NCBI GenBank assembly: GCA_004321915.1 | Contig: SCQE01000073.1 | Coordinates: 1-40,043 of the forward strand | Direction: 5' to 3' | DNA: 40,043 nt | Source: Nitrospirota bacterium | GTDB taxonomy: Bacteria > Nitrospirota > Thermodesulfovibrionia > Thermodesulfovibrionales > Dissulfurispiraceae | Part shown: positions 6,820 to 29,986 of the stretch, in pieces | How the letters are laid out: each line of letters starts with the position of its first letter | How positions within the stretch are numbered: position 1 is the stretch's first letter | Program-made: the position numbers and the translations under genes | The notes under the pieces: model-generated | What the model was told of the DNA's origin: nothing | The model's database searches: none | What the model saw: only the letters and a program-made list of their open reading frames with translations

Positions 6820-9800
6820 ATGGACAAAATCGGAGGCTTTTTTCAGTCGCATATCGACATCGTCTTTTTCGTTTACGGCTTGGCCTTCACCATAATGGGC
6901 ATAGCCATTCTGGCGCAGCCCAAAAGGGAAAGCGGTTTCGGGATAGCGCTGCTCTTCTGGCTGCTTGCGGCCTTCGGCCTTACCCACGGCGTCAACGAGT
7001 TCTTGGACATGTGGGTCATAAGCAAGGGCAAGGGCCCTGTTATCGACCTCGTTCGCTGGGCCTTTCTGGTATCCTCGTATATCTTCCTTTTTGAGTTCGG
7101 CAGGCGACTTATCAGCGCGACGCAATTGCGGAAAATCGGCGGTATTTGGCATCGCAATTCGGTTTTTGTCATATGCGCTTTAATATTTGCGACCGCTTTA
7201 ATGTCCGGAGATTTCTGGTTGACCGGCTCCATCTTGGCAAGGTATCTCTTGGGCTTTACAGGGGGCCTCTGCACCGGCATAGGCTTTATATTTTATTACC
7301 GCACGAATTCCGACAGGCTCGACCGGATGGGCCTGAAAAAGTATTTTATGTCGGCGGGAGCGTCTTTTATCTTTTACGGGTTGGTGGGCGGGCTTATAGT
7401 GCCGGCGGCCGGATTTTTCCCTGCCTCTTTTCTGAACCACGAATCGTTTTTCGCTGTTGTCAGCATACCGGTACAGGTCTTCCGGGGACTCTGCGCGGTT
7501 TTGATAGCCTTGGCAGTGGGTAAAATACTCAAGATGTTTCATGTCGAGATAACAAACAAACTCGAGGAAGACCTTTCCCTGCTCAGTCAGTCCCAAAACG
7601 CCCTCAGGCAGCTGCACAGGTTCATAAAAACGGCGTTCGACAGCTTAAACGAGGCGATCGTGATCGTGAATGTCCGGGACTTTACTATTGCAGGGGCAAA
7701 CCGGAATTTCCTTGATGAATACGGGTTCAGGGAAGAGTCCGAAGCGATAGGCAAAACCTGCCATGAGGTGTCACACAAGCAAAAGACCCACTGCACGCCT
7801 CCCTATGATGACTGCCCTCTGCTCAAAACGCTCGAAACAGGCCAGCACGAGACAGCGGAGCACATCCATACGGACCACTATGGCAATAAAAAATATGTGG
7901 AGGTCTCGACGTCCCCTATCAGGGACGATTCTGCGAATATAGTCCAAGTCATCCATGTCTCGCGCGACATAACGCAAAAAAAGCTGGCGGAGCAGTCGCT
8001 GTTGAAGAATGAGGAGAGGTTCCAGACCCTGTTCAACACCAGTCAGGACGGGATCTACTGGACCGACAGCAGCGGGGTGTTCACCCTTATAAACGAGGCA
8101 GGGGCCCGCATTTTAGGGCATACGGGTCCCGAAGAGATCATAGGAAGAAAAGCGGACGATTACTGGCGCAATCCGGCTGACAGGGACGAGTTCATATCTT
8201 TGATAAGAAGAGAGAAACGGGTCAGCGCTTATCCTATACCGGCAAAGCGCAGGGACGGAACGCCCATAGAGATCGAAGCCACTGTGCGCATCGTGGAGGA
8301 CAAAAAAGGGATATTTCTCGGGATCGAAGGCATACTGCGCGACGTGACCCAGCATATGCTTTATCAACAAGAGCTTAAACAGAAGAACGAGCAGATGTCC
8401 GCCTTGTTCGGCAAGGTCGAGGCGGTAAAGAAGGAATGGGAGTGCATCATGGACTCGACCGACGACATGATAGCCCTGATAAGTTCCAAGGAGACCGTAA
8501 TGCGCTGCAACAAGGTGTTCAAGTCGTTTTTCGGCAATGTCTATGAAGGGATCATAGGCAAAAAGTGGAAGGAACTGTTCGAACAATACGGGCTTCAACA
8601 TGAGGGTAATATTGTCCACGGCTCGGAACTTTACCACCCTGAAAGTTTTCGCTGGTTCGTGTTGAGCATCAATCCGTTCGAGGGGCATGAACTCCAGACC
8701 GAATATGTCCTGACGGTCCACGACCTGACCGATATGAAGAACCTGACCGAGTCCCTTTCGATAACCAACGCAGAGATAGAGCAGAACAAGATAAAACTGC
8801 AGGACGCCTTGGAAGAGCTGACCTTTCTCATTAATGAAGTCACGAACAAGAAAGACTTCAGCGTCAGGTTCCAGAACCCGAATCTCAGGATATGCTATGA
8901 AGAAAAGGGCTGCAAAAGCACCGATTGTCCGTGTTACGGAAAAAACGAGGAGCGCTGCTGGCAGGTCGCCGGCACATACTGCGGGGGCAAGGTCCAAGGC
9001 GTGTTCGCCGAAAAATTCGGCAATTGCGCTGAATGCGACATTTTCAGGTCCGCAACCTCCGACCCGATTTATCAGATAGGCGAAAACTTCAATAACATGA
9101 TGCACATTCTCGAAATACAGCACAAGGAACTGGAAGGCGCTTACAACGACCTGAAGGTGGCGCAATCGCGCATCCTGCAGCAGGAGAAGATGGCCTCGAT
9201 AGGCCAACTGGCGGCAGGCGTTGCCCACGAGATCAACAACCCTACAGGCTTTATCATGAGCAATCTCGGGACCCTCCAGAAATATTCTGCCAAACTCACC
9301 GAGTTCATAAAAGCTCAGGCAGAGGCTGTGCGGCCGGAACAGGCCGAGGCCGTCGGGAAGAGACGTAAAGAGCTCAAGGTGGATTACGTTATCGAAGACT
9401 TAAGCGCCCTTATAACGGAATCGCTCGACGGCGCAGAGAGGATACGCAAGATTGTGCAGGACCTGAAGAGTTTTTCGAGGGTGGACGAGGCCGAAAATAA
9501 AATGGCCGACATAAACTCCGGAATAGACGCCACCGTCAACATCGTATGGAACGAACTCAAGTATAAGGCCACGGTCAAAAAAGAGTACGGCGATATACCG
9601 AATACCAGATGCAATCCGGGACAGCTGAATCAGGTATTCATGAATATGCTGGTGAACGCGGCCCACGCGATCGAGAAGCAGGGCGAGATAACTATCAGAA
9701 CGCGCTCGGAAGAAGGCAATATTCTGGTTTCGATAAGCGATACAGGCAAAGGCATATCTCCCGAAAACCTAAACAGGATATTCGAGCCTTTCTTTACCAC

Positions 9801-9951
9801 AAAGGATGTCGGAAAAGGCACGGGTTTGGGTCTGAGCATCGCATATGAGATAATAAAGAAGCACAACGGAGAGATACTTGTGGAGAGCGAGGTCGGCAAG
9901 GGCACGACCTTTACGGTAGTGATTCCGGTCATAGGGGGCGAAAATGAGTGA
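6820..9951 (+). CDS. 7TM-PAS-PAS-PAS-Cys-rich histidine kinase
   Basis: 1043 residues. The N-terminal 235 residues form about seven transmembrane helices, starting FFVYGLAFTIMG, an unassigned integral sensor module. PAS1 (about 265-390) carries C314-x4-H319, C325 and DCPL (C332). PAS2 is at about 395-515 and PAS3 at about 540-640. A coiled coil leads to a Cys-rich segment at about 692-740 with eight cysteines (C692, C698, C703, C705, C713, C721, C736, C739) and one invariant-looking CW pair. The kinase core has His803 (GVAHEINNP), an N box near Asn942-946, SDTGKGIS and GTGLGL. It is the largest kinase in the block and its only seven-helix one. The Cys-rich segment resembles CW-type motifs of anaerobe sensor proteins; a metal or Fe-S cofactor is a guess. 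The downstream receiver overlaps it by 8 nt. Confidence 0.92.
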   Translation: MDKIGGFFQSHIDIVFFVYGLAFTIMGIAILAQPKRESGFGIALLFWLLAAFGLTHGVNEFLDMWVISKGKGPVIDLVRWAFLVSSYIFLFEFGRRLISATQLRKIGGIWHRNSVFVICALIFATALMSGDFWLTGSILARYLLGFTGGLCTGIGFIFYYRTNSDRLDRMGLKKYFMSAGASFIFYGLVGGLIVPAAGFFPASFLNHESFFAVVSIPVQVFRGLCAVLIALAVGKILKMFHVEITNKLEEDLSLLSQSQNALRQLHRFIKTAFDSLNEAIVIVNVRDFTIAGANRNFLDEYGFREESEAIGKTCHEVSHKQKTHCTPPYDDCPLLKTLETGQHETAEHIHTDHYGNKKYVEVSTSPIRDDSANIVQVIHVSRDITQKKLAEQSLLKNEERFQTLFNTSQDGIYWTDSSGVFTLINEAGARILGHTGPEEIIGRKADDYWRNPADRDEFISLIRREKRVSAYPIPAKRRDGTPIEIEATVRIVEDKKGIFLGIEGILRDVTQHMLYQQELKQKNEQMSALFGKVEAVKKEWECIMDSTDDMIALISSKETVMRCNKVFKSFFGNVYEGIIGKKWKELFEQYGLQHEGNIVHGSELYHPESFRWFVLSINPFEGHELQTEYVLTVHDLTDMKNLTESLSITNAEIEQNKIKLQDALEELTFLINEVTNKKDFSVRFQNPNLRICYEEKGCKSTDCPCYGKNEERCWQVAGTYCGGKVQGVFAEKFGNCAECDIFRSATSDPIYQIGENFNNMMHILEIQHKELEGAYNDLKVAQSRILQQEKMASIGQLAAGVAHEINNPTGFIMSNLGTLQKYSAKLTEFIKAQAEAVRPEQAEAVGKRRKELKVDYVIEDLSALITESLDGAERIRKIVQDLKSFSRVDEAENKMADINSGIDATVNIVWNELKYKATVKKEYGDIPNTRCNPGQLNQVFMNMLVNAAHAIEKQGEITIRTRSEEGNILVSISDTGKGISPENLNRIFEPFFTTKDVGKGTGLGLSIAYEIIKKHNGEILVESEVGKGTTFTVVIPVIGGENE

Positions 9952-10741
9952 GCAGATAAGAATCCTTTGCGTAGACGATGAACAGAATGTCCTGAACGCG
10001 CTCAGGAGGATATTCATGGACGACGATTACGAGATAGTGATCGCCAATTCGGGCAAAGACGGCATCAGGCTTCTGGAGGAAAAAGAGTTCCAGATAGTCA
10101 TATCGGACTACCGCATGCCTGAAATGAACGGGGTCGAGTTCCTGAAGCAGGTTTACGACAACTGGCCCGATACGGTAAGGATCGTGCTCTCGGGTTATGC
10201 GGACGCAGGGGCCATAGTCTCCGCCATAAACGAGGGGCGGATATACAAGTTCATACCCAAACCGTGGAACGACGACGAACTGAAGATCACTATCAAAAAC
10301 GCCCTCGAAAGATACTTTCTGTTCAAAGAAAACGTAAAACTCACAGGCGAACTCAAATACAAAAACACGGAACTCCAAAAACTCAATACTCAATTGGAGC
10401 AGTATCTCGCGCTTCGCACCGAGATGCTCGAAGCGCACCAGAGGATACTCGACTCGATACCGCTCGGAGTGGTCGGCATCGATTCCAACGGCATGGTCGC
10501 CTGCTGCAACGAACAATGGGTAAAGCTGATAAACCACAATACATCCGTGCTGTCGTCCTTTGCCGAGAACGTGTTCGACAAACCTATGCTCGATTTTATA
10601 GAAGAGGTGAAGGAAAAAGGCAGCGCAGAACAAACAACAACCGTAAACGGGGCTGCAGGCAGGCTTATGGGCAAAAAATTGGGGTACGAAGGCGAGTATT
10701 ACGGTGTGACCGTGGTGTTTATACCGGAATGCGCGGCGTGA
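9944..10741 (+). CDS. Response regulator, REC plus C-terminal PAS-like domain
   Basis: 265 residues. The receiver (about 5-122) has phospho-acceptor Asp55 and ends in the KPWND signature also seen in four other receivers of this block. A coiled-coil linker (about 125-165) leads to a small PAS-like domain (about 168-262) beginning RILDSIPLGVVGID. No DNA-binding or catalytic output domain is visible, so the likely role is as a relay or scaffold with the kinase upstream. The ATG lies 8 nt inside that kinase gene, which implies translational coupling. A 122-nt gap with inverted repeats follows. Confidence 0.9.
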   Translation: MSEQIRILCVDDEQNVLNALRRIFMDDDYEIVIANSGKDGIRLLEEKEFQIVISDYRMPEMNGVEFLKQVYDNWPDTVRIVLSGYADAGAIVSAINEGRIYKFIPKPWNDDELKITIKNALERYFLFKENVKLTGELKYKNTELQKLNTQLEQYLALRTEMLEAHQRILDSIPLGVVGIDSNGMVACCNEQWVKLINHNTSVLSSFAENVFDKPMLDFIEEVKEKGSAEQTTTVNGAAGRLMGKKLGYEGEYYGVTVVFIPECAA

Positions 10742-10796: not shown

Positions 10797-10807
10797 CCAA
10801 AAAGACA

Positions 10808-10834
10808 CTGGATTCCCGCCTTCGCGGGAATGAC
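10808..10834. repeat. dRS3-like palindromic repeat (ATTCCC-N8-GGGAAT)
   Basis: ATTCCC at 10812-10817 and GGGAAT at 10826-10831 enclose exactly 8 nt and form an 8-bp perfect stem with a CTTC loop. The format ATTCCC-N8-GGGAAT is the same as the dRS3 element known from Neisseria, and similar intergenic palindromes occur in many bacteria. Two further copies of the same layout lie on the other side of the next gene. Confidence 0.7.
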
Positions 10835-10863: not shown

Positions 10864-11835
10864 ATGACAGAAAACAATAAAAAAAAGGTGCTTCTGGTAG
10901 ACGACGAGGAATATGTGCTGCACTCGCTCAAGAGGCTCCTGCTGGACGAAGATTACGAAGTGCTGACCGGGGTCTCGGGAAAGGAAGGGCTTGAACTCTT
11001 GCAGGGCAACGAGGTGGCGGTAATAGTTTCGGACCATAGAATGCCGGAGATGACCGGCGTCGATTTTTTGGAGAAGGCGAGGCTTATATCTCCGGACACG
11101 GTCAGAATAATCCTTACCGGATATGCGGACGTTACTGCAGCTATCGACGCGATAAACAGGGGCGGGGCCTACAAGTTCATAACAAAGCCTTGGGACCAAG
11201 GTGACTTTATGCGTGTGGTTTCGGATGCGGTCAGGCAGTACGAGACAGTAAAGGCCTTGAGGAGTTCGGACGAAGGGGCGCTGCTTTCATTGGCGCAAGC
11301 GGTCGAGTTGAAAGACCCGTATACACGCGGACACTGCGAAAGGGTGGCGGACTATGCGCTCATTATAGCCGGCTCTCTCGGCCTGCCTGAGGAACTGAAG
11401 AAGGACATCAAGCACGGCAGCTGGCTGCACGACTGCGGGAAAATAGGCGTGCCGGACGCGATACTCAATTTTAACGGCCCGCTCTACAAGGAACAGCTGG
11501 AGCTTGTGAAGAACCACAGCCGATGGGGGGCCAATATGGCCTCTCTCGCAAGACTGCCTCAGGCTGCCGTGAACGTTATCCTTTACCACCATGAGAGGTA
11601 TGACGGCTGCGGCTATCCTGCAGGGCTCAAAGGCGGCGATATCCCCCTTGAGGCCCGTATTGCGGCCATCGCAGATGTCTATGACGCGCTTACCTCGGAC
11701 CGTCCTTACCGCTTAAAAATGGACGAGCTACAGGCCCGGGAGTTGATGCTTTCCCAAAAAGAGAGCCACTTCGACCCGAAACTCATGAATATATTTTTTA
11801 ACGAAATTGCATGCTTAAAGACCGATGTTATATAA
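10864..11835 (+). CDS. REC-HD-GYP response regulator (probable c-di-GMP phosphodiesterase)
   Basis: 323 residues. The receiver (about 7-125) has Asp57 and the KPW signature near 108-110. The HD-GYP domain (about 137-318) has an intact set: HD pair His189-Asp190 in LHDCGKIG, HHERYDGCGYP at 242-252 and DVYDALTSDRPYR at 271-283. HD-GYP proteins of this layout (RpfG type) hydrolyse c-di-GMP in response to phosphorylation; activity here is inferred from the full motif. The ribosome site AGGGA lies upstream of ATG 10864. The gene sits between two 122-nt gaps that each carry palindromic repeats, so it may have been inserted or duplicated as a unit within the block. Confidence 0.93.
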   Translation: MTENNKKKVLLVDDEEYVLHSLKRLLLDEDYEVLTGVSGKEGLELLQGNEVAVIVSDHRMPEMTGVDFLEKARLISPDTVRIILTGYADVTAAIDAINRGGAYKFITKPWDQGDFMRVVSDAVRQYETVKALRSSDEGALLSLAQAVELKDPYTRGHCERVADYALIIAGSLGLPEELKKDIKHGSWLHDCGKIGVPDAILNFNGPLYKEQLELVKNHSRWGANMASLARLPQAAVNVILYHHERYDGCGYPAGLKGGDIPLEARIAAIADVYDALTSDRPYRLKMDELQARELMLSQKESHFDPKLMNIFFNEIACLKTDVI

Positions 11836-11860: not shown

Positions 11861-11930
11861 GTCATTCCCGTGAAAACGGGAATCCAGTCTTACCATACAG
11901 CCATGGATACCCGCCTGCGCGGGTATGACA
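11861..11930. repeat. Paired dRS3-like palindromes with inverted ends
   Basis: Two palindromes of the same layout are present. ATTCCC-N8-GGGAAT is at 11864-11883 and ATACCC-N8-GGGTAT at 11907-11926. The whole element begins GTCAT and ends ATGAC, so its ends are inverted repeats, as in a BIME-like or miniature element. It fills most of the 122-nt gap between the two HD-GYP genes. It may act as an mRNA-stabilising or attenuating structure, or simply be a dispersed repeat. Confidence 0.65.
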
Positions 11931-11957: not shown

Positions 11958-13292
11958 ATGGCTGATACACCCGGAAACGTATCGAAGAAGGTCCTTTTCG
12001 TTGACGATGAAGAAAATGTCACAAGGTCTCTGAAGAGACTGTTTATCGACACCGATATCGAGGTATTTACCGCTAATTCCGGCAAAGAAGGGCTCGAAAT
12101 ATTGAAGAGAGAGGACATTGCGGTGATAGTTTCGGACCAGCGCATGCCCGAGATGGGGGGCGCCGAGTTCCTCGAAAAGGCGAAGAAGCTGTCGCCGAAC
12201 AGCGTCAGGATGGTGCTGACCGGTTACGCCGACGTAAATGCCGCTGTCGATGCTATAAATAAGGGCGGGGCCTTCCGATACATCACCAAGCCTTGGAACG
12301 ACAACGATATGCTCATAACCGTGATGAACGCGGTCGAGCGCTACAACCTGCTCAAAGAGAATATCCGGCTCACAGCGCTGACCAAGAAACAGAACGAGGA
12401 ACTGAAGAAATGGAGCGACGAGCTCCAGATATATGTCCAGCAGCAGACCATAGACCTGACCAATCAGAACAAAGAGTTCAAGAAACTGAACAACAAGATG
12501 AATGAGGCCTTCGGTTCGGTCATTGCGGCCTTCACGAGCCTTATCGAATTAAGGGACAGCAGCGTACAGAACCATTCTGCGGGCGTTTCGGCGCTTTCGG
12601 TAGAAACGGCCAAACTCGCCGGCATGAATGAGGACGAGATCAAGACAATAGGCGTTGCCGCTCAATTGCACGACATAGGCAAGATAGGCATAACCGATTT
12701 GATACTCATGAAAAACCCTGCCGCGCTCACCCCGGAAGAGTTGATCGAATACCGCAAACATTCGGTCAGGGGGCAGTCGGCCGTCGATTCGATAGAGGAG
12801 CTGAGGCCCGCAGGCGTACTGATAAGACACCACCACGAATGGTACAACGGGAAAGGCTTTCCGGACGGGCTTAAAGGGAAAGACATTCCGGCCGGGGCGA
12901 GGATCATCGCGCTTGCGGATTATTTCGACCGCCTCATGCACGGAATAAAGACCCATTCGGCACAGACGGTGCTTTACAAGATGCAGTCTCTGGCGGGCAC
13001 CCAGTTCGACCTTTTTCTTTTCAAGAAGCTCGAAGAGGCCGCCACGAGCATGTTCCCTGCGGCGGTCGAAAATAAGGACATCGAACTAAAGCCGACTATG
13101 GAGGCCGAGCTGCACATCGACGATCTGGCGCCGGGCATGATCGTATCGCAGGACATAAAGAGCGGGACCGGGATCCTGCTTTTGAGCAGGAACACGGTCC
13201 TTACGCCTAAAAATATAGACGGGCTGAAGAGGAGTTCTCACATAGACCCGCTGTCGGCCGGAATATTCATCTGGAAAAAGGCGCTTGCATGA
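11958..13292 (+). CDS. REC-HD-GYP-like protein with altered GYP motif and C-terminal extension
   Basis: 444 residues. The receiver (about 9-127) has Asp60. A coiled coil runs at about 130-185. The HD domain (about 187-345) keeps the HD pair His238-Asp239 in LHDIGKIG and a downstream Asp in ADYFDRL. However, the signature reads HHHEWYNGKGFP (291-302), with Asn and Phe where the family has Asp and Tyr, and the DVYDALTSDRPYR-type motif is lost. A C-terminal piece (about 385-440) reads LAPGMIVSQDIKSG and GILLLS, a small domain seen at the end of some HD-GYP proteins. Metal binding may persist, but c-di-GMP hydrolysis is doubtful and a sensory or binding role is possible. AGGAG lies 9 nt before the ATG. 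The next gene overlaps by 4 nt. Confidence 0.9.
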   Translation: MADTPGNVSKKVLFVDDEENVTRSLKRLFIDTDIEVFTANSGKEGLEILKREDIAVIVSDQRMPEMGGAEFLEKAKKLSPNSVRMVLTGYADVNAAVDAINKGGAFRYITKPWNDNDMLITVMNAVERYNLLKENIRLTALTKKQNEELKKWSDELQIYVQQQTIDLTNQNKEFKKLNNKMNEAFGSVIAAFTSLIELRDSSVQNHSAGVSALSVETAKLAGMNEDEIKTIGVAAQLHDIGKIGITDLILMKNPAALTPEELIEYRKHSVRGQSAVDSIEELRPAGVLIRHHHEWYNGKGFPDGLKGKDIPAGARIIALADYFDRLMHGIKTHSAQTVLYKMQSLAGTQFDLFLFKKLEEAATSMFPAAVENKDIELKPTMEAELHIDDLAPGMIVSQDIKSGTGILLLSRNTVLTPKNIDGLKRSSHIDPLSAGIFIWKKALA

Positions 13293-13960
13293 TCGAATAC
13301 AACGAAGCTGAAAACAAGATGATACTCAAACTGGTCTACTACGGGCCTGCCATGTCCGGCAAGACCACGAACCTCCTCTGCCTTCACGATATCCTCGATA
13401 CTACAGGCCGGGGAGAACTGATGATGCTCGATACAAAAGAGGACCGCACGATCTTTTTCGACCTGCTGCCGTTTTTCTTTACGGCGCCGGGCGGCCTGAA
13501 AATAAAATTGAAGGTCTACACCGTGCCCGGGCAGGTGCGCCACGACGCCACAAGAAAGGCCGTGCTTACGAGGGCGGACGGCATAGCCTTCATCGCCGAC
13601 TCGCAGGTTTCCGAATCCGCAAACAATGCCGAAAGCTTCGGGAACCTTGAAAAAAACCTGACATTCGTGGGGATCGATATCGACCGTGTCCCTCTCGTGA
13701 TACAGTTCAATAAAAGAGACCTTCAGGAAATAACCCCCGAAGAAGAGCTTAGAAAAGTCTGGAAGAGTTCAGGAATACAGTTGTTCATGGCCTCCGCGCT
13801 GCAGGGTTGGGGCATTCTGGAAACCTTTACTTCATTGCTCGGCATGACCTATGATTCGCTCGACGGACGTTACGGCCTTGCCGGAAAACAGGGACTTACG
13901 AAGGACATGTTCGTGAAGAACCTCACAAGGCAGGAGGCGAATGGACAAAACGTCAGATAA
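13289..13960 (+). CDS. MglA-like small Ras-superfamily GTPase
   Basis: 223 residues. P-loop GPAMSGKTT at 19-27, switch I region with TKEDRT at about 49-54, switch II PGQ at 80-82 and the guanine-specificity motif NKRD at 141-144 identify an MglA-type GTPase. This is a bacterial Ras-like family that sets polarity and switches motility machinery in Myxococcus. It is slightly longer than the usual 195 residues, with a Gly/Lys-rich tail. No roadblock-domain MglB GAP gene is present nearby. The gene overlaps the preceding HD-GYP-like gene by 4 nt (ATGA) and the following kinase by 20 nt, so the three are probably co-translated. A role in switching a pilus or polar complex is inferred from the neighbouring PilB-like ATPase. 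Confidence 0.88.
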   Translation: MIEYNEAENKMILKLVYYGPAMSGKTTNLLCLHDILDTTGRGELMMLDTKEDRTIFFDLLPFFFTAPGGLKIKLKVYTVPGQVRHDATRKAVLTRADGIAFIADSQVSESANNAESFGNLEKNLTFVGIDIDRVPLVIQFNKRDLQEITPEEELRKVWKSSGIQLFMASALQGWGILETFTSLLGMTYDSLDGRYGLAGKQGLTKDMFVKNLTRQEANGQNVR

Positions 13961-15356
13961 ACTGGAGTTTGTCGTAGGCTCCGATGTTTTGCTCAAAGAC
14001 CTTCTCGAAGAGAAGAACGGGCAGGCTATTATCGACGCGCTCGTCTCTGCAGGGGCTTCGTCCGCCTGCGTGGCTGATGGAGGCGGCGGTATATTATGGC
14101 TGGCTGGAGACTTTTCATCACCCTCCCCTTCATCCCCTCCACTCAAGGGAGGGGAAATACAAAGTGTGTCCTGCCTCAAAGGAGGGGATGAAAAGAAGAA
14201 GCCTCCCGTACACCCCTCTCCCCCGGAGGGAGAGGGCAGGGGTGAGGGGGAATTAAAAATCTTCAAAAAAGGATTTCTACACGAAGGGGAAGAGATAGGT
14301 TTCATATCAGCCGCTTTTCCGGCATCGTTTCAGGATGCTCACTGCAACGCCCTGTTCCTGATGGCATACACCGCCCTCGCCTCCATCGCGCAAAGCAGCG
14401 TAAAGAGGATGCTGACCGCAGAACTGCACACCACCGTGGTGCAACAGTCTTACGATGAGCTGCTGGAGGCGAACCGCATGGTCACCGCGTCGGAGCGAAA
14501 GTATAAAGAGCTTGCCTTGAACTTGGAACAGAAAGTCAACGAGCGCACAGCAGAGCTTAAAAATGCGATGAGCAGCCTGCTCCAGCGCGAGACGATGGCG
14601 TCTATAGGGCAATTGGCAGCAGGCATAGCGCACGAAATAAACAACCCGATAGGGTTCATAAAGAGCAATCTCTCGACCCTCTCCAAATATTCGAAAAACC
14701 TTATAGAACTGCTGCAATGGCACGGGCAGGTCGCTGCAGCCTCAGGATACGGCGACAAAGCCGATGCCCTGCGCAAAAAACTTAAGATAGATCTGATCAT
14801 CGAAGACCTGAACGACCTTATCAGGCAGAGTATAGACGGGGCAGAGCGCATAAGAAAAATAGTCTCGAACCTCAAGGATTTTTCGCATATCGACGAAACG
14901 CGGTCTAGGGACATAAATATTGCCGAAGAACTGGACAACACGCTCTCGGTGCTTTCCCATGAGATAAACAAAAAAGGCGTGCGGATAAACAAAGAATACG
15001 CCGACACCTGCCCTGTTTACGGCAATCCCTCGCTCATAGGCCAGTTGTTCGTTAACCTGCTGATGAACGCGCTGCAATCGCGGGACAGCGAATTGATCAT
15101 TACGCTGAGGGTCGCGCAGTCCGGAGATTTTCTGTCGGTTTCGGTCGGTGACAACGGCAGGGGCATCCCGCAGGAAATAGTGGGCCGCATCTTCGAACCC
15201 TTTTTCACTACAAGGGAAGTGGGAAAGGGCACGGGCATGGGCCTGACAGTGGTTTACGATATCGTTAATTCTTTCGGCGGCACAATTTCGGTCGAAAGTG
15301 TTCTAGGGAAAGGCACCCGTCTTACAGCGACCTTCCCGTGCAGAAAGGACAACTGA
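13941..15356 (+). CDS. Soluble histidine kinase with repeat-derived insert
   Basis: 471 residues, starting within the GTPase gene behind AGGAGG (13932-13937). The N-terminal region (about 8-165) has no transmembrane helix and looks like a small sensor domain. It is interrupted at about residues 58-105 by a Pro/Gly/Glu/Lys-rich segment encoded by a palindromic DNA repeat. A coiled coil (about 168-215) leads to the HisKA with His231 (GIAHEINNPIGF). The ATPase domain has LFVNLLMNAL, GDNGRGIP and GTGMGL. The core belongs to the same HEINNP subfamily as the two kinases at 5091 and 6820. The reading frame is intact through the insert. The position between a GTPase and a REC-fused ATPase suggests it phosphorylates the latter. 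Confidence 0.9.
   Translation: MDKTSDKLEFVVGSDVLLKDLLEEKNGQAIIDALVSAGASSACVADGGGGILWLAGDFSSPSPSSPPLKGGEIQSVSCLKGGDEKKKPPVHPSPPEGEGRGEGELKIFKKGFLHEGEEIGFISAAFPASFQDAHCNALFLMAYTALASIAQSSVKRMLTAELHTTVVQQSYDELLEANRMVTASERKYKELALNLEQKVNERTAELKNAMSSLLQRETMASIGQLAAGIAHEINNPIGFIKSNLSTLSKYSKNLIELLQWHGQVAAASGYGDKADALRKKLKIDLIIEDLNDLIRQSIDGAERIRKIVSNLKDFSHIDETRSRDINIAEELDNTLSVLSHEINKKGVRINKEYADTCPVYGNPSLIGQLFVNLLMNALQSRDSELIITLRVAQSGDFLSVSVGDNGRGIPQEIVGRIFEPFFTTREVGKGTGMGLTVVYDIVNSFGGTISVESVLGKGTRLTATFPCRKDN
14113..14253. repeat. G/C-rich palindromic repeat embedded in coding sequence
   Basis: About 141 bp with two hairpins: CCCCTCC/GGAGGGG within 14135-14155, and CCCTCTCCC/GGGAGAGGG around 14214-14236. 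The end GGGCAGGGGTGAGGGGG resembles an intergenic repeat common in many genomes. Base composition is strongly strand-skewed and unlike the flanking codons. The stretch is open in the kinase frame and the flanks read naturally without it (GILWLAGD before, ELKIFKKGF after), so it looks like a repeat that inserted in frame. Confidence 0.7.
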
Positions 15357-17791
15357 TGTCGAAATACGCGAATCTTTTCACTTCGGCGCAGCAGGCGGAC
15401 AGAGATGTCCGCTTTACTGCTCAGGCCGCGGCCGAAGAAGGTTTTCCTGACACCGGTCGCTTCACACTGCTCTTCGTCGATGACGAAGAGAACGTCCTCA
15501 ACGCACTCAGACGCATTTTTATCGAAGAAAACTACGAAATATTGACCGCCCGGTCCGGCGATGAGGCGTTGAAGATCATGGAAGCCCGTCCCACGCAGCT
15601 CGTGATAAGCGACCACCGCATGCCGGGCATGACCGGGGCCGAACTCCTGAGGGAAATAAAAGACAAGTGGCCCCAGACGATACGCATTATGCTGACCGGA
15701 TACGCGGACGTGCAGTCAATCATGGGCGCGGTCAACGAAGGCGCGGTCTATAAATTCATAACAAAACCGTGGAACGACGAAGACCTCAGGATAACCGTAA
15801 GCTTGGCCCTTCAGCAGTATGTGCTGCTGAAGGAGAACAGAAAGCTCAGGGAAATTTCTAAGGAACAGGCCCTCAAGCTCAAAAACTACAGCAACCTTTT
15901 CGACGAAGACCGGGGGCTTTTAGGCAAGATCCTGCTCAAGGCCGGAGTTGTCAATGCCGCACAGTTGGAGTCTGCGCAAAAAGCAAAGAACAGGGACGAG
16001 TTCTTCGGCGACGCGCTGGTGCGCCTCGGGTTAACGTCCGAAAACAAGATCGTACATGAACTCCAGAAAAACCAGAACCTGCCGGTGCTCGACCTGAAGG
16101 AAACGCAGATAAATCCGGCTGTCGTAAAAATACTGCAGCGCGGGCTCTGCGCAAAGAACAGACTTATACCGATCAAGCTTGAAGGCGGGAACCTCACTAT
16201 CGCGATGGCCGACCCTTCGGACATTATCAAGGTCGACAACATCGCCATGCTTACCGGATTCAAGGTCCTTCCGGTAATAGCGAAATCATCCGATATAGCA
16301 GCTGTGCTGACCAAGGTCTATGGGGATTCGACCGGAGAAGAGGAGATCGCCGATATAGAAGAGCAGATGGAAGCGGAGCCGGTAGAGGAGATAGACATCG
16401 TCATAGAGGACGACGAGGCGTCCGAAAACCTTCAGGAGCTTATGACCGCCTCCGGTGTCCCGCCTATAATCAGGATCGTGAATGCGGTGGTGCTCGAAGC
16501 CTTACGTCTCAAGGCGAGCGATATACACATCGAGCCGAAAACCAAATACACGATCGTCCGCTACAGGATTGACGGCATGCTCTACACGAAACTGAAGGTG
16601 CCTTCGCAACTGCACACCGCGGTCATCTCCCGGATAAAGATACTGGCGAAAATGGACATATCCGAAAAGAGAAAGCCACAAGACGGCAGGATAACCATAA
16701 AAACCAGTGAACGCGTGGTCGACGTGCGCGTTTCTTCCATGCCCACTATCAACGGAGAAAAGGTCGTGATGCGGGTCTTGGACAAGACCGCTGCGGTCAA
16801 AAAGATTTCGGAGCTGGGCATGCTGGCCGACGACCTAAAGCGTCTCGATGTGGTCATAAAAAAACCTCAGGGCATAGTCATATCAACGGGCCCCACAGGC
16901 AGCGGTAAAACGACGATGCTTTATTCGATGCTCTATGAAATGCTCAAAAGCACGAAGAACTACGAGACCATAGAAGACCCTGTGGAGTATTTTTTGGAGG
17001 ACGCGAACCAAGTGTATGTTAAAGACAAAATAGGCCTCTCTTTCGCGTCGGTGCTCCGGGCCACGTTGCGTCAGGACCCGGATGTTATTCTCGTAGGGGA
17101 GATCCGGGACCATGAGACGGCGGATGTGGCGTTCAAGGCCGCGCTTACAGGCCATATGGTCTTGACGAGCCTGCACACCAACAACACCGTGGCCTCGATC
17201 ACGAGGCTTATGGACATCGGGGTCAAGCCGTATCTTATCGCCTCGGCGCTGGACGGCATCATAGCGCAGAGGCTTGTGCGAAGGGTCTGTTCCGAATGCA
17301 AGACCGATATTACGCCGGACAAGGACATAATCGAACTGCTCAATATCCCGGCAGACTCCCTGAAGCTCGTAACTCAGGGCACAGGCTGCGCCAAGTGCGG
17401 CAACACCGGATACTCGGGCAGGACCGGCATCTTCGAGCTCTTTGTGATGAACGACGAGTTCAGGCACATGATAAGCACCGATTACCGCGAATCGGAGCTG
17501 CTCAACCTGTCGCGGCTCGGCGGCATGAGAACGCTTATCGAGGACGGCATCGAAAAGGTAAGGTCCGGCATCACGACCCTCGAAGAACTGCTGAGGGTCG
17601 TGGGGCCGCCGACAAAATACGAGCGCAGGTGCGAGCGCTGCAGCAACATGGTCGACATAAAGTTTCTTTTCTGTCCCTATTGCGGCGCGTTCAAGCATAA
17701 TATATGCGTAAGCTGCAGGATGCCGCTCGAACAGGCATGGTTAGTCTGCCCGTTTTGCGGGACCTCGCGCAATAATTCAGACGATAAGTGA
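15356..17791 (+). CDS. REC-fused PilB/GspE-type secretion ATPase with double zinc ribbon
   Basis: 811 residues from ATG 15356, preferred over an upstream GTG because it overlaps the kinase stop (TGATG) and follows AAAGGA at good spacing. Domain order: receiver (about 36-150, Asp86, KPWND); linker; MshEN/GspE N-terminal-like domain (about 185-325) with two LG-x6-G-type repeats; acidic linker; hexameric ATPase (about 365-750) with Walker A GPTGSGKTT at 512-520, Walker B ILVGEIRD, His box LHTNN and a four-Cys zinc site (C645, C648, C678, C681). A double zinc ribbon follows at about 759-801 with eight Cys in CxxC pairs. PilB/GspE proteins power pilus assembly or secretion. The receiver and the terminal zinc ribbons are additions I do not know from a characterised member. 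No pilin or platform gene is nearby. Confidence 0.92.
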   Translation: MSKYANLFTSAQQADRDVRFTAQAAAEEGFPDTGRFTLLFVDDEENVLNALRRIFIEENYEILTARSGDEALKIMEARPTQLVISDHRMPGMTGAELLREIKDKWPQTIRIMLTGYADVQSIMGAVNEGAVYKFITKPWNDEDLRITVSLALQQYVLLKENRKLREISKEQALKLKNYSNLFDEDRGLLGKILLKAGVVNAAQLESAQKAKNRDEFFGDALVRLGLTSENKIVHELQKNQNLPVLDLKETQINPAVVKILQRGLCAKNRLIPIKLEGGNLTIAMADPSDIIKVDNIAMLTGFKVLPVIAKSSDIAAVLTKVYGDSTGEEEIADIEEQMEAEPVEEIDIVIEDDEASENLQELMTASGVPPIIRIVNAVVLEALRLKASDIHIEPKTKYTIVRYRIDGMLYTKLKVPSQLHTAVISRIKILAKMDISEKRKPQDGRITIKTSERVVDVRVSSMPTINGEKVVMRVLDKTAAVKKISELGMLADDLKRLDVVIKKPQGIVISTGPTGSGKTTMLYSMLYEMLKSTKNYETIEDPVEYFLEDANQVYVKDKIGLSFASVLRATLRQDPDVILVGEIRDHETADVAFKAALTGHMVLTSLHTNNTVASITRLMDIGVKPYLIASALDGIIAQRLVRRVCSECKTDITPDKDIIELLNIPADSLKLVTQGTGCAKCGNTGYSGRTGIFELFVMNDEFRHMISTDYRESELLNLSRLGGMRTLIEDGIEKVRSGITTLEELLRVVGPPTKYERRCERCSNMVDIKFLFCPYCGAFKHNICVSCRMPLEQAWLVCPFCGTSRNNSDDK

Positions 17792-17800
17792 GGAGTTGAA

Positions 17801-18361
17801 ATGTCCAAACACAACATTTTATTGGTTGACGACGAACCGTCGGTGCTTTCGTCCCTCAAGAGGGTGTTCATCGACGAACCTTACACCATCTTCACCGCAC
17901 AGTCGGCGAAGGAAGGCCTGAAGGTCCTGAGCGAAAAAAAGATAAAACTCGTCATATCGGACGAGCAGATGCCCAGCATGTCGGGCTCTGAGTTCCTCTC
18001 GATCGTGAGAAAGGATTTCCCGGGCGCAATCAGGATAATGCTCACAGGCCACGCAAGCATCGGCGCCGCTATGAGGGCCATCAACGAAGGCGAGATCTAC
18101 CGCTTCTTCACAAAGCCGTGGGACGATATAAACCTGCTTTTCGCGGTCAAGGACGCGCTCGAAAAATACGACCTCGAAGAAGAGAACAGGAGACTGCTGA
18201 AAACGGTCAAGAGGCAGACCATAGAGATCAAGAGCCTCGAAAAACAGTTCCCGGGGATCTCGGAGGTGCGGCGCGATGAAAAGGGAAACATAATCGTAGA
18301 CAATCTGACCAACGACGAGATGTCGGCCATTATCGAAGAATGCGAAAAGAAGTACAAATGA
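17801..18361 (+). CDS. Response regulator, REC with short C-terminal helix
   Basis: 186 residues. The receiver (about 4-122) has Asp54 in LVISDEQMPSMSG and the KPWDD signature, the same subfamily as the receivers at 9944, 10864, 11958 and 15356. A coiled coil (about 125-155) and a charged tail with VDNLTNDEMSAIIEECEKK follow. No recognised output domain is present. AGGAG (17791-17795), overlapping the ATPase stop, precedes the ATG by 5 nt, so it is tightly coupled to the REC-fused ATPase and is the last gene of the block. Confidence 0.9.
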   Translation: MSKHNILLVDDEPSVLSSLKRVFIDEPYTIFTAQSAKEGLKVLSEKKIKLVISDEQMPSMSGSEFLSIVRKDFPGAIRIMLTGHASIGAAMRAINEGEIYRFFTKPWDDINLLFAVKDALEKYDLEEENRRLLKTVKRQTIEIKSLEKQFPGISEVRRDEKGNIIVDNLTNDEMSAIIEECEKKYK

Positions 18362-25527: not shown

Positions 25528-25612
25528 AAGTAAGAAGTGAGAACTTAGAACTAAAAACTTTTTACTTCTTACTTCACACTTCTCACTTTTTATTTCTCGC
25601 TTGTTACTTATT
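25528..25612. repeat. Inverted pair of 7-bp repeat tracts (CTTACTT/ACTTCTT family)
   Basis: Five phased heptads at 25528-25562 (AAGTAAG, AAGTGAG, AACTTAG, AACTAAA, AACTTTT) are followed, after one T, by seven heptads at 25564-25612 (ACTTCTT, ACTTCAC, ACTTCTC, ACTTTTT, ATTTCTC, GCTTGTT, ACTTATT). The left block is the same family in opposite orientation, so AAGTAAGAAGT can pair with ACTTCTTACTT to form a hairpin. The right end overlaps the last codons and stop of the activase gene. Confidence 0.75.
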
Positions 25613-28600
25613 CTTTGCCGCTTCCATAAAGGCTTCCAGCTGCAGCGCTGTGGCCGGCGACTCTGTTCCATCATAGGGGATGCTGATGCACGGTATGCCG
25701 AAATCCTTGGCCACCGTCTTCATAAGCGCGCTTACAATAGTGCCGGGCATGCATCCGAAAGGCATAGCTACTATTATTCCCGACGCTCCCTTTTCTATGA
25801 GATCGACCGCCTTGCCTATGCTCAATACGGTCTCCCCTTCGAAGGAATGATGCACATACGGCAGGGCCTTCTTTAAAAGCGTCTTGGTGGAAGGCTCCTC
25901 AAGGGTCTTAAGAAATCCTTTAAAAGGCTTCCCGAGCCTATGCTCTATCCTCTTTTGAAAGACCGTCTTTGCAAAGATATTCATGATAGCAGACCCGTCT
26001 CTTTTTATCAAGGCCTTTCGCATAGACATAGCATTGACATAATAGAGCCACTCTTCGACAGGCGCAAGCCAAACCTCTCCGCCCGAAGACTCGATCTTCC
26101 TGACCAGTCCCTCGTTAGAAAACCTGTGGGACCTTACAAAAATCTCTCCGACAACGCCTATCAGGGGCCTTTTCTCCTCTCTGCGCGGGACAGCCCTGAA
26201 ATCACGTGACATGTCGCTTAATACGCCCTCGATGTCCCCGTTCCTGCCCGCAATACCGCAATGGATCTTTTCGTGGTACCTGACATACAGCTCTTCAGCG
26301 TCGCCTTGCTCCTTCTCATACGGCCGGGTTTCATGCACGCATTTGGTCAAAAACTCATAAGCGATGACCCCGGTCCATGTCCTCTTCGTGAAATCACCGC
26401 CGACAACCCCGAGTTCTTTATAGAACTGTACGTCCTGATTCGGCGAGAAAATGGGCACATTGTCCATGCCTATTTTTTTCAGTATCATGCCGTGCGCAAC
26501 ATTGTACTGCCCGAACCTGCAGGGTCCCGTTCCCGAAGGCATGAAAAACGCCGAACCTGAAGGAACAAAATCAGGAGACAGCGCCTTCTTCAGCATATCG
26601 CCTGCCGTGACCGTATAGGGATAACACTCCTTGCCCGAAACATGCCTTCTGCCTATATCGACTGACGACCTGTCGGATTCCGGCAGGACCTCGGCGCGGG
26701 CGCCGCAGTATTCGAAGGCCGCCTTTATCGCAAACGCATGGTCCGACATCGGCGGGACAAAAACGGTCCGTCTGCTTATATCGGACCTGCTGAATATTTC
26801 GGGAGCAGAGGCCGTATTGATCTTGTCGGGACTCTCGCCCCGGCCGCAGGATATCTGCTGCCCGATACTGTCCAAAAAGGCCTCGCAGCGCGTAATAACA
26901 CCGGCATCTGCGCTGTGTTCGTCGATCTCTATATGCAGGAACGGTTTCCCCCCCATCTCCTCACCGAAGTATTTGAAGATGAACGAGTCGGGGCCGCACG
27001 AAAAGTTCGAAACGCACATCGCATACATGCCGGGGGTCTTCCTGATAAACCGAGCCGCCTTGAGTATCCTCTGCCCCGAACGCCAGTACATGCCGGGCCA
27101 CTGTTCAGAAAGTCGCTCATCCTCTATCGGCAGAAAATCCATCGGAACGGAAAGCACGTTTATCTGCGCCAGTTTTTTAGGAATATCGAGATTTACTCCT
27201 GAATCGAAAGAATTGTATGCCCTCCCGACAATAGCCAAGATCGGAGTGTCCGCCGTGCAATTCGAGAGAATTTCCCTGCCCTTGTCTTTTATACTGCCGA
27301 CAAAACGCTTCTGGACCGAAAGCGCTTTGTCCATTGCAGCCGATACGGCCTTACGGCTTACGCCGTAACGCTTAAGCGCTTTATAAATTTCATCGCCGAC
27401 ACACCCTCCGCCCCGTCCGCTGTCTATAAGCGGAGAGATCATATTCACGCCCTTTATCGCGGCCTTGGAAACATAAGGTATGGACTGTATATGCGGGCAG
27501 GCTAGGCCCCTATCATACTCATCGCCGTTGCCGTTCAAACATATAAAGCTCGGTACAAAAACCGCATCCACCCCCGAATCCATGAGGTGCTTTATATGCC
27601 CATGCGCTACCTTTACCGGAAAACAGGCCTCCGACAGTACATTTTCCAAGCCAAGGTTCACCGTCTGCTTATTGGTCTTGGGCGACACCGTAACTTCGAA
27701 ACCGAGTTCCCACAAAAGGGTTGACCAAAAAGGCAGATAGTCTTGAAAGTAGAATATATAAGGGATCCCGATCTTGACTGCCGACCGTTGACTGCCGACT
27801 GCCGACTCTCTTTTAAGCTGTTCCTTCCAAAGCTCTTCTTCCCTGAACGCAAAAAGGTCAGGCAGCCCGCTTTTTGAAGCCTTTCTTACATCATACTTTT
27901 CGCAGCGGCCTCCGTAAAAAAGATGTCCGTTGTCATCCTCCACTTTTACTCTGTTTATTTCACAGACATTCGGACAGCCCTTGCACTCAAACGAATTTAT
28001 CTCATATTTCCTCTTTGACAATCCAAAACCCTTAAACCTGCTGACTGCCGACTGCCGACTGTTGACTGTTGACTGCTGACTGTTGACTGTTGACTGCTGA
28101 CTGTTGACTGTTGACTGCCGACTGCTGACTGTTGACTGTTGACTGCCGACTGTTGACTGCCGACTGCTGACTGTTGACTGTTGACTGCCGACTGTTGACT
28201 GTTGACTGCCGACTGTTGACTGTTGACTGCCGACTGTTGACTGTTGACTGTTGACTGCCGACCGGCTTTTCATATGCTTCATTGCGATAAGCGCCATGCC
28301 TATCGCACCGGTAACATCGTGGTTCGGCGGAACCGTGACCTTTCTGTCCAGATACCTCTCGAACGCCGCTACAACAGCCTTGTTGAATGCCACCCCGCCC
28401 TGAAAGAATATCCGTTCGCCTATAGGCCGTCCGGACACGACCCTGTTTATATAATTCTGGACAATAGAGTAAGCGAGTCCTGCAAGCAGGTTATCTTTGG
28501 GGGCGCCCTTCTGAAGGTTTGCCATAAGCGAGTTTTCCATAAACACCGTGCAGCGTTCTCCCAGCCTGCAAGGGCTTTCTGCGCTGAACGCCGCGTCGGC

Positions 28601-29986
28601 AAACTCGCCTTTCACAGAGATGCTCAGCTTCTCGGCCTGCTCCTCCAAGAACGAACCGGTCCCGGCAGCACACGCCTTATTCATCTCAAAATCAACTATT
28701 ATGCCGTCCTTGATCGAGATGAACTTCGAGTCCTGCCCCCCTATCTCCAATATAGTGTCCACTTCGGGGTCTATAAATATTGCGGCGGTGGCTTGGGCCG
28801 TAATCTCGTTCTTTACTATATCCGCGCCGACATAATCGGCTATCATGTATCTGCCTGAGCCGGTCGTTCCGACACCGGCGATATTCACGGAACCGCCGAG
28901 CTCCCCGTAAATCTCCGTAAATCCCTGCATCACGGCCTCTATTGGCCTGCCTGCGGTCATCAGGTAACGCTTTGCAAGCAGCCGGCCGCCGGCATCTATG
29001 ACCGCAAGGTTAGTGCTTATCGAACCTATATCTATGCCTAAATACGCCTCTACCGGGGGGCCCTCTTTTTGCCCGCTCACGGCCCCGGAACAAGCGTTAC
29101 CGGCCGTCGTGTGTCGGGCAAAAAAGTCTTCGCCGTCATGTATCAACGCCTTATAGCCTTCTTCGGAAAACCCTGCATCGAGAAAGGCCTCGAGTCTTCC
29201 CAAATCGAATTCATTGAAATTGCGGTCGTCCATGTCCTTCATGACCGCGCCTATAGCGCCCATCAAAGCATAATCGGGCGGAATAAAAAGCTCGTCGAGG
29301 CCGAACACCTCCCTGAAGGCCCTTGCCACGCCTTGGTTTGCAGCCACTCCGCCCTGAAACGCCACAGGCATTTGAAGTTCCCGCCCCTTTGCAATAGCTC
29401 CCCTGAAATTCCTCGCAACCGCAAAACAGAGCCCTGCCACAATATCTTCCACAGGCGTCGCTATCTGCTGAAGGTGTATCATGTCGGACTTCGCAAAAAC
29501 ACTGCACCTGCCCGCGATCTTGGACGGCCTCTTTGACGCAACAGCCAATTTGCTGAATTCTTCTATGGTAAGCCGCAGACGTTCGGCCTGCTGTTCGAGA
29601 AACGAACCGGTGCCTGCAGCGCAGACCGAATTAAGGGAAAAATCCTTTATGTTGCCGTCCTCGATGATTATCAATTTGGAGTCCTCCCCCCCCATCTCGA
29701 TGACTGTCCTGATCAAGGGATAAAGTTTTCTGAGGGAATAGGATTGGGAAACTATTTCATTGACGGGTTTTATTCCAAAGGCCGAAGCTATCGCCTTTCC
29801 CCCGGAACCTGTAATCGAAAGACAGGGGGCCGGATATTTTTGCGTTAAATCCTTAAGCTGCTCAAACGCAACCTTCGCAGGATGGCCGCAATGGCGGACA
29901 TACCGCCCTTCCAGTTTCCTTCCGCTGTTATCCAGAACCGATAACTTAACTGATACCGAGCCGGCGTCGAGACCGATAAAATGCAT
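25604..29986 (-). CDS. Two-domain acyl-CoA dehydratase activase (BadF/BcrA/HgdC-type) fused to DUF2229/HgdB-like region
   Basis: 1460 residues. Two ASKHA ATPase domains occur in tandem. Domain 1 (about 3-255) starts GLDAGSVSVKLSV and has Cys122 (CAAGTGSFL) and Cys161. Domain 2 (about 315-570) starts GIDIGSISTNLAV and has Cys439 and Cys479. In dimeric HgdC such cysteines hold one [4Fe-4S] between subunits, so here the cluster may lie between the two halves. A Cys cluster (C668, C671, C675, C695) precedes a DUF2229/HgdB-like part (about 738 to the end). The family drives ATP-dependent one-electron reduction of 2-hydroxyacyl-CoA dehydratases or benzoyl-CoA reductases. Repeat-encoded inserts sit at about 574-650 and 727-738. 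No dehydratase subunit gene is adjacent. The gene follows manC by 23 nt. Confidence 0.9.
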   Translation of the reverse strand: MHFIGLDAGSVSVKLSVLDNSGRKLEGRYVRHCGHPAKVAFEQLKDLTQKYPAPCLSITGSGGKAIASAFGIKPVNEIVSQSYSLRKLYPLIRTVIEMGGEDSKLIIIEDGNIKDFSLNSVCAAGTGSFLEQQAERLRLTIEEFSKLAVASKRPSKIAGRCSVFAKSDMIHLQQIATPVEDIVAGLCFAVARNFRGAIAKGRELQMPVAFQGGVAANQGVARAFREVFGLDELFIPPDYALMGAIGAVMKDMDDRNFNEFDLGRLEAFLDAGFSEEGYKALIHDGEDFFARHTTAGNACSGAVSGQKEGPPVEAYLGIDIGSISTNLAVIDAGGRLLAKRYLMTAGRPIEAVMQGFTEIYGELGGSVNIAGVGTTGSGRYMIADYVGADIVKNEITAQATAAIFIDPEVDTILEIGGQDSKFISIKDGIIVDFEMNKACAAGTGSFLEEQAEKLSISVKGEFADAAFSAESPCRLGERCTVFMENSLMANLQKGAPKDNLLAGLAYSIVQNYINRVVSGRPIGERIFFQGGVAFNKAVVAAFERYLDRKVTVPPNHDVTGAIGMALIAMKHMKSRSAVNSQQSTVGSQQSTVGSQQSTVGSQQSTVSSRQSTVGSQQSTVSSRQSTVNSQQSTVNSQQSTVNSRQSAVSRFKGFGLSKRKYEINSFECKGCPNVCEINRVKVEDDNGHLFYGGRCEKYDVRKASKSGLPDLFAFREEELWKEQLKRESAVGSQRSAVKIGIPYIFYFQDYLPFWSTLLWELGFEVTVSPKTNKQTVNLGLENVLSEACFPVKVAHGHIKHLMDSGVDAVFVPSFICLNGNGDEYDRGLACPHIQSIPYVSKAAIKGVNMISPLIDSGRGGGCVGDEIYKALKRYGVSRKAVSAAMDKALSVQKRFVGSIKDKGREILSNCTADTPILAIVGRAYNSFDSGVNLDIPKKLAQINVLSVPMDFLPIEDERLSEQWPGMYWRSGQRILKAARFIRKTPGMYAMCVSNFSCGPDSFIFKYFGEEMGGKPFLHIEIDEHSADAGVITRCEAFLDSIGQQISCGRGESPDKINTASAPEIFSRSDISRRTVFVPPMSDHAFAIKAAFEYCGARAEVLPESDRSSVDIGRRHVSGKECYPYTVTAGDMLKKALSPDFVPSGSAFFMPSGTGPCRFGQYNVAHGMILKKIGMDNVPIFSPNQDVQFYKELGVVGGDFTKRTWTGVIAYEFLTKCVHETRPYEKEQGDAEELYVRYHEKIHCGIAGRNGDIEGVLSDMSRDFRAVPRREEKRPLIGVVGEIFVRSHRFSNEGLVRKIESSGGEVWLAPVEEWLYYVNAMSMRKALIKRDGSAIMNIFAKTVFQKRIEHRLGKPFKGFLKTLEEPSTKTLLKKALPYVHHSFEGETVLSIGKAVDLIEKGASGIIVAMPFGCMPGTIVSALMKTVAKDFGIPCISIPYDGTESPATALQLEAFMEAAKNK
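27774..27808. repeat. Five-unit 7-bp repeat tract inside the activase gene
   Basis: Five phased units, TTGACTG, CCGACCG, TTGACTG, CCGACTG and CCGACTC, lie within the activase coding region and encode SAVGSQRSAV-type residues at about 727-738. The unit is the same family as the 32-unit tract 230 bp away, including the CCGACCG variant that ends that tract. It sits just before the DUF2229-like region, at a domain boundary. Confidence 0.8.
28041..28264. repeat. 32-unit phased heptanucleotide repeat (YYGACTG) inside the activase gene
   Basis: 224 bp made only of TTGACTG, CTGACTG and CCGACTG units in perfect phase, with a last CCGACCG. Because 7 is not a multiple of 3, three units code for one heptapeptide. 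The protein therefore shows a 7-residue repeat of the QQSTVGS / RQSTVNS type (about residues 574-650), low in complexity and probably disordered, between the second ATPase domain and the Cys cluster. Gain or loss of one or two units would shift the reading frame. Confidence 0.95.

Follow-up and report, generated by a model that had tools for sequence, protein, structure and literature searches.

A receiver-fused PilB-class ATPase encoded with an MglA-like GTPase: a candidate phosphorylation-gated pilus motor in Nitrospirota

Control of pilus motors normally comes from separate adaptors (SgmX, FimX/PilZ) or from cyclic dimeric GMP (c-di-GMP). A gene on contig SCQE01000073.1 of a Nitrospirota bacterium (assembly GCA_004321915.1, positions 1 to 40,043; this whole stretch of 40,043 nucleotides is referred to as the window) raises the question of how a motor is controlled, and which machine it drives, when two-component input lies within the motor polypeptide itself and the gene of an MglA-like GTPase is in the same operon. 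The product of this gene, which we call the motor protein, has a receiver, an MshEN-like domain, a PilB/GspE-type ATPase and a double zinc ribbon, in that order. We consider it probable that the motor protein is a hexameric extension motor of the PilB class that is gated by phosphorylation, is coupled to MglA and serves as an auxiliary motor on a shared type IV pilus platform.

Architecture and class of the motor protein

The frame at 15356-17791 on the + strand has 811 codons and no internal stop. A GTG at 15338 is an alternative start that would lengthen the protein by six residues, but the ATG at 15356 is favored because AGGA lies upstream of it and because it agrees with the start of the family, "MSKYA". 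The protein and its parts are as follows.

15356..17791, + strand: receiver-MshEN-PilB/GspE ATPase-double zinc ribbon protein, 811 aa (single open reading frame, Pfam, alignment, model)
15470..15796, + strand: receiver domain, residues 39-147 (Pfam Response_reg, 2.4e-24; structural match to receiver domains, Z 20-22)
15776..15904, + strand: predicted continuous helix of 43 residues (141-183) linking the receiver to MshEN (AlphaFold2 model; predicted local distance difference test score, pLDDT, 57-85 with its minimum at 171-190)
15908..16333, + strand: MshEN-like domain, residues 185-326, with a degenerate c-di-GMP motif (Pfam MshEN at 241-326, 6.9e-20; alignment to PilB and MshE structures)
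16454..17596, + strand: T2SSE/PilB-type ATPase core, residues 367-747 (Pfam T2SSE, 4e-128; structural match)
17288..17398, + strand: tetracysteine zinc site, C645, C648, C678 and C681 (alignment)
17630..17761, + strand: C-terminal double zinc ribbon, residues 759-802, eight cysteines in four CxxC pairs (Pfam DZR, PF12773)

All four Pfam domains exceeded their gathering scores, including the zinc ribbon (DZR; 1e-6, 29.3 bits versus a gathering score of 27.3). The receiver has each of the residues expected of such a domain, namely an acidic pair (D42/D43), the phospho-acceptor D86, T114 and a lysine within a KPW motif at 137-139, K137 being seen in the window sequence. In the ATPase, the Walker A motif is at 512-520, the Asp box at 538-545, the Walker B region at 573-585 and the His box at 600-607.

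A contig scan of genomes gave 80 loci, and the alignment comprised 78 full-length sequences, the window protein included, drawn from Nitrospirota, Desulfuromonadota-type and Desulfobacterota genomes. Six receiver residues (D42, D43, D86, T114, P138 and W139) were invariant in all 78, as were the Walker A sequence GPTGSGKT, the Asp-box and Walker B acids and the His-box histidines. Thirteen cysteines, including those of the tetracysteine site and the eight at the C-terminus, were each kept in at least 76 of the 78. The domain order given in a preliminary description of this DNA (a receiver with Asp86, an MshEN-like domain, a full ATPase with a four-cysteine site and eight terminal cysteines) was thus borne out by Pfam and the alignment. 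That description had also raised the possibility that two genes were joined through assembly or sequencing. We found nothing in support of such a join; it is contradicted and ruled out by the identical domain order of the 78 aligned sequences, which come from independent assemblies including those of isolates, so that its chance is practically nil and the motor protein is a genuine fusion.

Ortholog counts were made with thresholds passed by orthologs alone, and genomes were sampled evenly from the larger groups, so that the values are sample fractions. Orthologs were found in nine of 198 Nitrospirota genomes (rows with E = 0), in 47 of 117 genomes of the order of Geotalea toluenoxydans (three of these 47 matches being partial, at contig ends or split across contigs) and in 11 of 147 genomes of the class of Desulfoluna, nearly always as one copy per genome. 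Cultured isolates with an ortholog belong to Desulfoluna, Geotalea, Geobacter argillaceus, Oryzomonas and Geothermobacter. No description of the receiver-motor protein, of its zinc ribbon or of the MglA cassette presented below was found in the open-access literature, in line with the earlier remark that no characterized protein is known to have this order. By the counts given above the architecture is not rare, and "fairly common but undescribed" fits it better than "unique". Co-occurrence of MshEN with receivers has already been recorded in general terms, for example in the response regulator Bd2402, in the portion of PMC5013675 consulted; the proteins concerned resemble the motor protein in having both domains in one chain, but neither the order receiver-MshEN-motor-zinc ribbon nor the MglA cassette is described in that portion of the text.

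The class of the ATPase was assessed from structure and from family models. An AlphaFold2 monomer model built from 50 sequences (mean pLDDT 78; predicted template modeling score, pTM, 0.49) contained an ordered receiver, the helix at 141-183, an MshEN fold, a disordered linker at 325-363 and a two-lobed ATPase; the relative placement of the domains is unreliable in this monomer model and a hexamer is outside its reach. The ATPase core superposed on PilB and PilF with Z of 44-46, 47-49% identity and a root-mean-square deviation of 2.3-2.8 over about 380 residues, which was better than on GspE or PilT. No match in the structural search spanned the receiver and the motor, but the list was filled by single domains and has no bearing on novelty. 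The best NCBIfam match was to PilB (TIGR02538), at 568.3 bits against an equivalog cut-off of 675.65; the GspE score (TIGR02533) was 546.3, under the curated cut-off of 630.25, and no gsp genes are adjacent. Because the motor protein scores under the curated cut-offs of PilB and of GspE alike, it is most fittingly classed as a new subfamily within the PilB-class motors.

Of the features that define PilB, the core fold of PilB/PilF, Walker A and B, the Asp box, the His box and the tetracysteine site were all found, but co-encoded pilC or other pil genes were not, there being no T2SSF gene on the contig of the window (C130) and the neighbors being signaling genes. Geobacter metallireducens PilB (5tsg/5tsh) and Thermus thermophilus PilF (5oiu) have the MshEN domain, the ATPase core, all of the motifs and the zinc site in common with the motor protein. 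Unlike them, it has in addition the N-terminal receiver, the long helix and the C-terminal double zinc ribbon, it is without the c-di-GMP motif, it lies outside pil operons and it falls under the PilB equivalog cut-off.

Phosphorylation and c-di-GMP as inputs

Comparison with related motors bears on whether the receiver is likely to matter. Motors of about 630 aa that have the same zinc ribbon and no receiver, and whose MshEN motif is mostly intact, were found in many other Nitrospirota. In a second kind of fusion the receiver is C-terminal (MshEN-T2SSE-DZR-receiver; L127:5214-7472 and L128:9351-11612) and the gene lies beside a histidine kinase and a DnaJ-type gene; the L127 locus additionally encodes a receiver-GGDEF protein. 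In a third kind, from another Nitrospirota family, a receiver-MshEN-PilB protein with no zinc ribbon (L131-L135, in genomes G013, G003, G039, G046 and G031) is encoded in a canonical pil operon with a T2SSF platform protein (PilC), PilM and a secretin. In a tree of the ATPases, the family of the window protein formed one clade (100/99). The C-terminal-receiver type joined the DZR motors that lack a receiver (95/93), and the type from pil operons was placed with other PilBs, on a branch whose resolution was weak (84/46). Because the fusion types fall in separate clades, we judge from this tree that a receiver was joined to a motor of this kind on three or more occasions in Nitrospirota. This repetition is the best indirect evidence that phosphorylation of the motor would be useful to the cell, and it strengthens, at the level of sequence, the proposal that the motor protein is phospho-gated. 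The zinc ribbon was also found on receiver-less PilB-like proteins, and its role as a docking module is plausible.

The second input to be considered is c-di-GMP, which the preliminary description had proposed might gate the motor directly through MshEN. The c-di-GMP motif of this domain, as set out in PMC5013675, is RLGxx(L/V/I)(L/V/I)xxG(L/V/I)(L/V/I)xxxxLxxxLxxQ in two repeats. In the window protein the arginine sites are occupied by L188 and F216 and the glutamine sites by K211 and N239, so that the reported lack of an arginine in the first repeat was correct but extends to the second. Among the 78 orthologs none had arginine at either site, one had glutamine at both, and in none did a repeat fit the published motif in its strict or its relaxed form. 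By contrast, the relaxed form was matched at least once by five of five canonical PilBs and by seven of 11 receiver-less DZR motors. Because the arginine sites are lost and there is no relaxed match in 78 sequences, canonical c-di-GMP binding by the MshEN domain of the motor protein is unlikely, and with a motif that is degenerate in every ortholog the earlier proposal of direct gating could not be upheld. ATPases of the MshE type that bind c-di-GMP likewise have an MshEN fold ahead of a T2SSE domain but retain the RLG...Q motif, which is missing from both repeats of the motor protein.

It could still be argued that phosphorylation and c-di-GMP both gate the motor directly, the latter through an atypical MshEN site. 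The MshEN fold is present, two HD-GYP response regulators are encoded in the operon, and imperfect motifs are described as still able to bind in PMC5013675. The same source reports that XpsE lost binding through changes in key residues, and together with the residue and motif counts given above this makes such dual gating very unlikely. The two HD-GYP-type regulators imply that c-di-GMP may act elsewhere in the circuit.

The operon and its MglA cassette

The motor gene is the seventh of eight genes, the others of which, including histidine kinases (HK) and response regulators (RR), are as follows.

6820..9951, + strand: HK1, which opens the conserved cassette; PAS-PAS histidine kinase, its N-terminus probably in the membrane (Pfam)
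9944..10741, + strand: RR1, receiver with a weak PAS-like C-terminus (Pfam)
10864..11835, + strand: RR with an HD-GYP domain, a predicted c-di-GMP phosphodiesterase (Pfam)
11958..13292, + strand: RR with an HD-GYP-like domain (Pfam)
13289..13960, + strand: MglA-like small GTPase, 223 aa (matches to MglA in the PDB, 5e-42; alignment of 22 orthologs)
13941..15356, + strand: HK2, histidine kinase of 471 aa adjoining the 5' side of the motor gene (Pfam HisKA and HATPase_c; 46 orthologs aligned; model)
17801..18361, + strand: RR2, receiver with a tail of about 70 aa, 9 nt 3' of the motor gene (Pfam; alignment)

The order in the window is HK1, RR1, two RR/HD-GYP genes, mglA, HK2, motor and RR2. The genes are tightly packed, with overlaps of 4 nt between the second RR/HD-GYP gene and mglA, 20 nt between mglA and HK2, and 1 nt between HK2 and the motor gene. 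Across loci the cassette (HK, RR, one or two RR/HD-GYP genes, MglA, HK, motor, RR) usually stays together. For the 66 loci with at least 3.5 kb of upstream DNA, an MglA-like GTPase gene was within 6 kb of the motor gene in 62, which bears on the earlier question of whether such a gene is always nearby, and a histidine kinase gene was directly upstream, often overlapping, in 62. Of 74 loci, 62 had a response regulator gene after the motor gene, and none is present there in the Desulfobacterota branch.

The P-loop, the intrinsic arginine finger R53 (Myxococcus numbering), PGQ82 and NKRD were invariant in 22 of 22 aligned MglA orthologs, and because of this conservation the GTPase of the cassette should be active. 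MglB, a Roadblock protein, is the usual GTPase-activating protein of MglA. The home genome, which is 99.6% complete, gave no Robl_LC7 match (MglB/Roadblock), and Roadblock/MglB was undetected in six of the nine Nitrospirota carriers (the home genome G000, G067, G090, G160, G174 and G140) and present in the remaining three. A Pfam search of the HK2 N-terminus for a hidden Roadblock or GTPase-activating domain gave no match; the model of this region is an alpha-beta-beta-beta-beta-alpha unit whose middle part is unreliable. By eye, no transmembrane segment was apparent in HK2.

Two known systems invite comparison. In Myxococcus, MglA-GTP promotes pilus extension via SgmX, which localizes PilB (PMC7519303), and the response regulator RomR connects signaling to MglA (PMC3441718, in the part consulted). 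This pathway, like the cassette, brings together a Ras-like MglA, a response regulator and a PilB motor. The cassette differs in that the receiver and the motor are one polypeptide encoded in an operon with MglA, and in that Roadblock/MglB is undetected in most of its Nitrospirota carriers. By analogy, we propose that the cassette does the job of the Myxococcus module with fewer parts. A bolder form of this idea, which we find possible but doubtful, is that the cassette is self-contained: MglA-GTP and phosphorylated D86 would together enable a dedicated extension ATPase, with no need for MglB, SgmX or c-di-GMP binding, and the whole cassette would be exchanged between Nitrospirota and Desulfobacterota-type bacteria, supplying a second motor in Geobacter-type cells. 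The conservons (Cvn) of Actinobacteria also have a histidine kinase gene beside an MglA-type GTPase gene, but a motor ATPase is missing from them, and they encode CvnC along with a Roadblock protein (PMC4316618).

Several other observations were made on this DNA. HK2 has an in-frame insert of about 40 residues (SPSSPPLKGG...PSPPEGEGRGEGE; window 14117-14250) that is absent from or different in its orthologs. At the DNA level, this insert is one copy of an interspersed, GC-rich repeat to which the home genome has 18 further partial matches, and the folding of the insert is more stable than that of shuffled sequences (z -2.55). The two 122-nt gaps in the operon, between RR1 and the first RR/HD-GYP gene and between the two RR/HD-GYP genes, carry inverted 28-nt copies (10807-10834 and 11861-11888) of what is likely a second interspersed repeat. 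Promoter-like sites in a scan were at chance level (6 versus 6.8 expected), and terminator-like sites numbered 24 versus 10.9 expected, mostly on the minus strand and inside genes. Elsewhere in the window, a minus-strand open reading frame at 25604-29986 encodes 1460 aa that are BadF/BcrAD-like by eye, with in-frame tandem SQQSTV(G/S/N) units.

Proposed mechanism and the machine that is driven

In the mechanism that we propose, D86 would receive its phosphoryl group from one of the operon's histidine kinases, HK2 being the likeliest, and the signal would run via the long helix between the receiver and MshEN to the hexamer, altering its activity or its docking. The MglA-like GTPase of the operon would be a partner of the motor, recruiting it or setting its position much as MglA-GTP acts on PilB, through SgmX, in Myxococcus. 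The motor protein, having no platform of its own, would borrow a type IV pilus platform already in the cell, with the zinc ribbon as a probable docking surface for a partner. MshEN would be retained as a structural relay that has lost the canonical reading of c-di-GMP, and c-di-GMP input would reach the circuit through the two HD-GYP response regulators. The domain architecture, the conservation of residues, operon and cassette, the repeated receiver fusions and the degenerate c-di-GMP motif are established by the sequences, whereas phosphotransfer, contact with MglA, the identity of the filament and the task of the ribbon are inferred.

The idea of a borrowed platform comes from gene counts. 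The home genome encodes six full PilB/GspE-type ATPases versus three T2SSF platform proteins, none of the latter on the contig of the window. Motors outnumbered platforms in 18 of 18 carrier genomes counted, and PilM, a marker of type IVa pili, was encoded in 18 of 18 examined. Because motors exceed platforms in every genome checked, a second motor using an existing platform is the simplest reading. The cassette of Desulforapulum (L087) is followed, about 2 kb downstream, by two genes of the PilT family. The home genome encodes two more PilB/GspE-like orphan ATPases with no platform, on contigs C9 (L136:8015-10234) and C134 (L139:8859-10601); the ATPase on C9 has two relaxed matches to the c-di-GMP motif and a MinD/ParA-like gene beside it.

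The platforms of the home genome are T2SS-like and Msh-like (C28, C143), besides one on C107, and the GspE score of the motor protein is near its PilB score (546 versus 568 bits). The motor protein could thus power a system like type II secretion, or a filament of its own other than a pilus, on one of the T2SS-like or Msh-like platforms, and not a type IVa pilus. We consider this distinctly unlikely, as the top structural and family matches are to PilB/PilF, MglA is tied to type IV pili in characterized systems and one relative lies near PilT-family genes. The output might, alternatively, be mainly signaling, with the ATPase hexamer acting as a phospho-controlled scaffold or ATP sensor for, for example, exopolysaccharide. 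The neighborhood is without pilus genes, the cassette consists almost wholly of signaling genes, and Myxococcus PilB is reported to signal to exopolysaccharide production in the part of PMC5544727 consulted. This second alternative is also unlikely, since the 78 sequences show essentially no variation in the motifs with which a working motor carries out catalysis, a constraint beyond what a scaffold would need, and the parallel receiver-PilB fusion is located in a pil operon.

Several findings weigh against a phosphorylation-gated pilus motor on a shared platform, which nevertheless is the reading that we prefer. The PilB equivalog cut-off was not reached; coupling from the receiver through MshEN to the ATPase is not resolved in the monomer model (pTM 0.49); no pilin, platform or secretin genes are adjacent to the motor gene in the window; some other orphan motors in the same genomes, which have no receiver, are also without a platform, so that orphan status is not specific to the motor protein; and with two kinases and five receivers in one operon, the phospho-donor of D86 is ambiguous.

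With a receiver in the motor and mglA in the operon, a route from MglA and a phospho-signal to PilB becomes testable with one short cassette. The locus is relevant to Geobacter as well. Deletion of pilB in Geobacter sulfurreducens left pilin filaments, and PilB homologs were listed as possible substitutes (PMC8557921). Second motors under the control of a receiver suggest themselves as candidates for such a Geobacter PilB substitute. The regulatory logic suggested by this locus is testable and fairly unusual: a pilus motor may be switched directly by phosphorylation.

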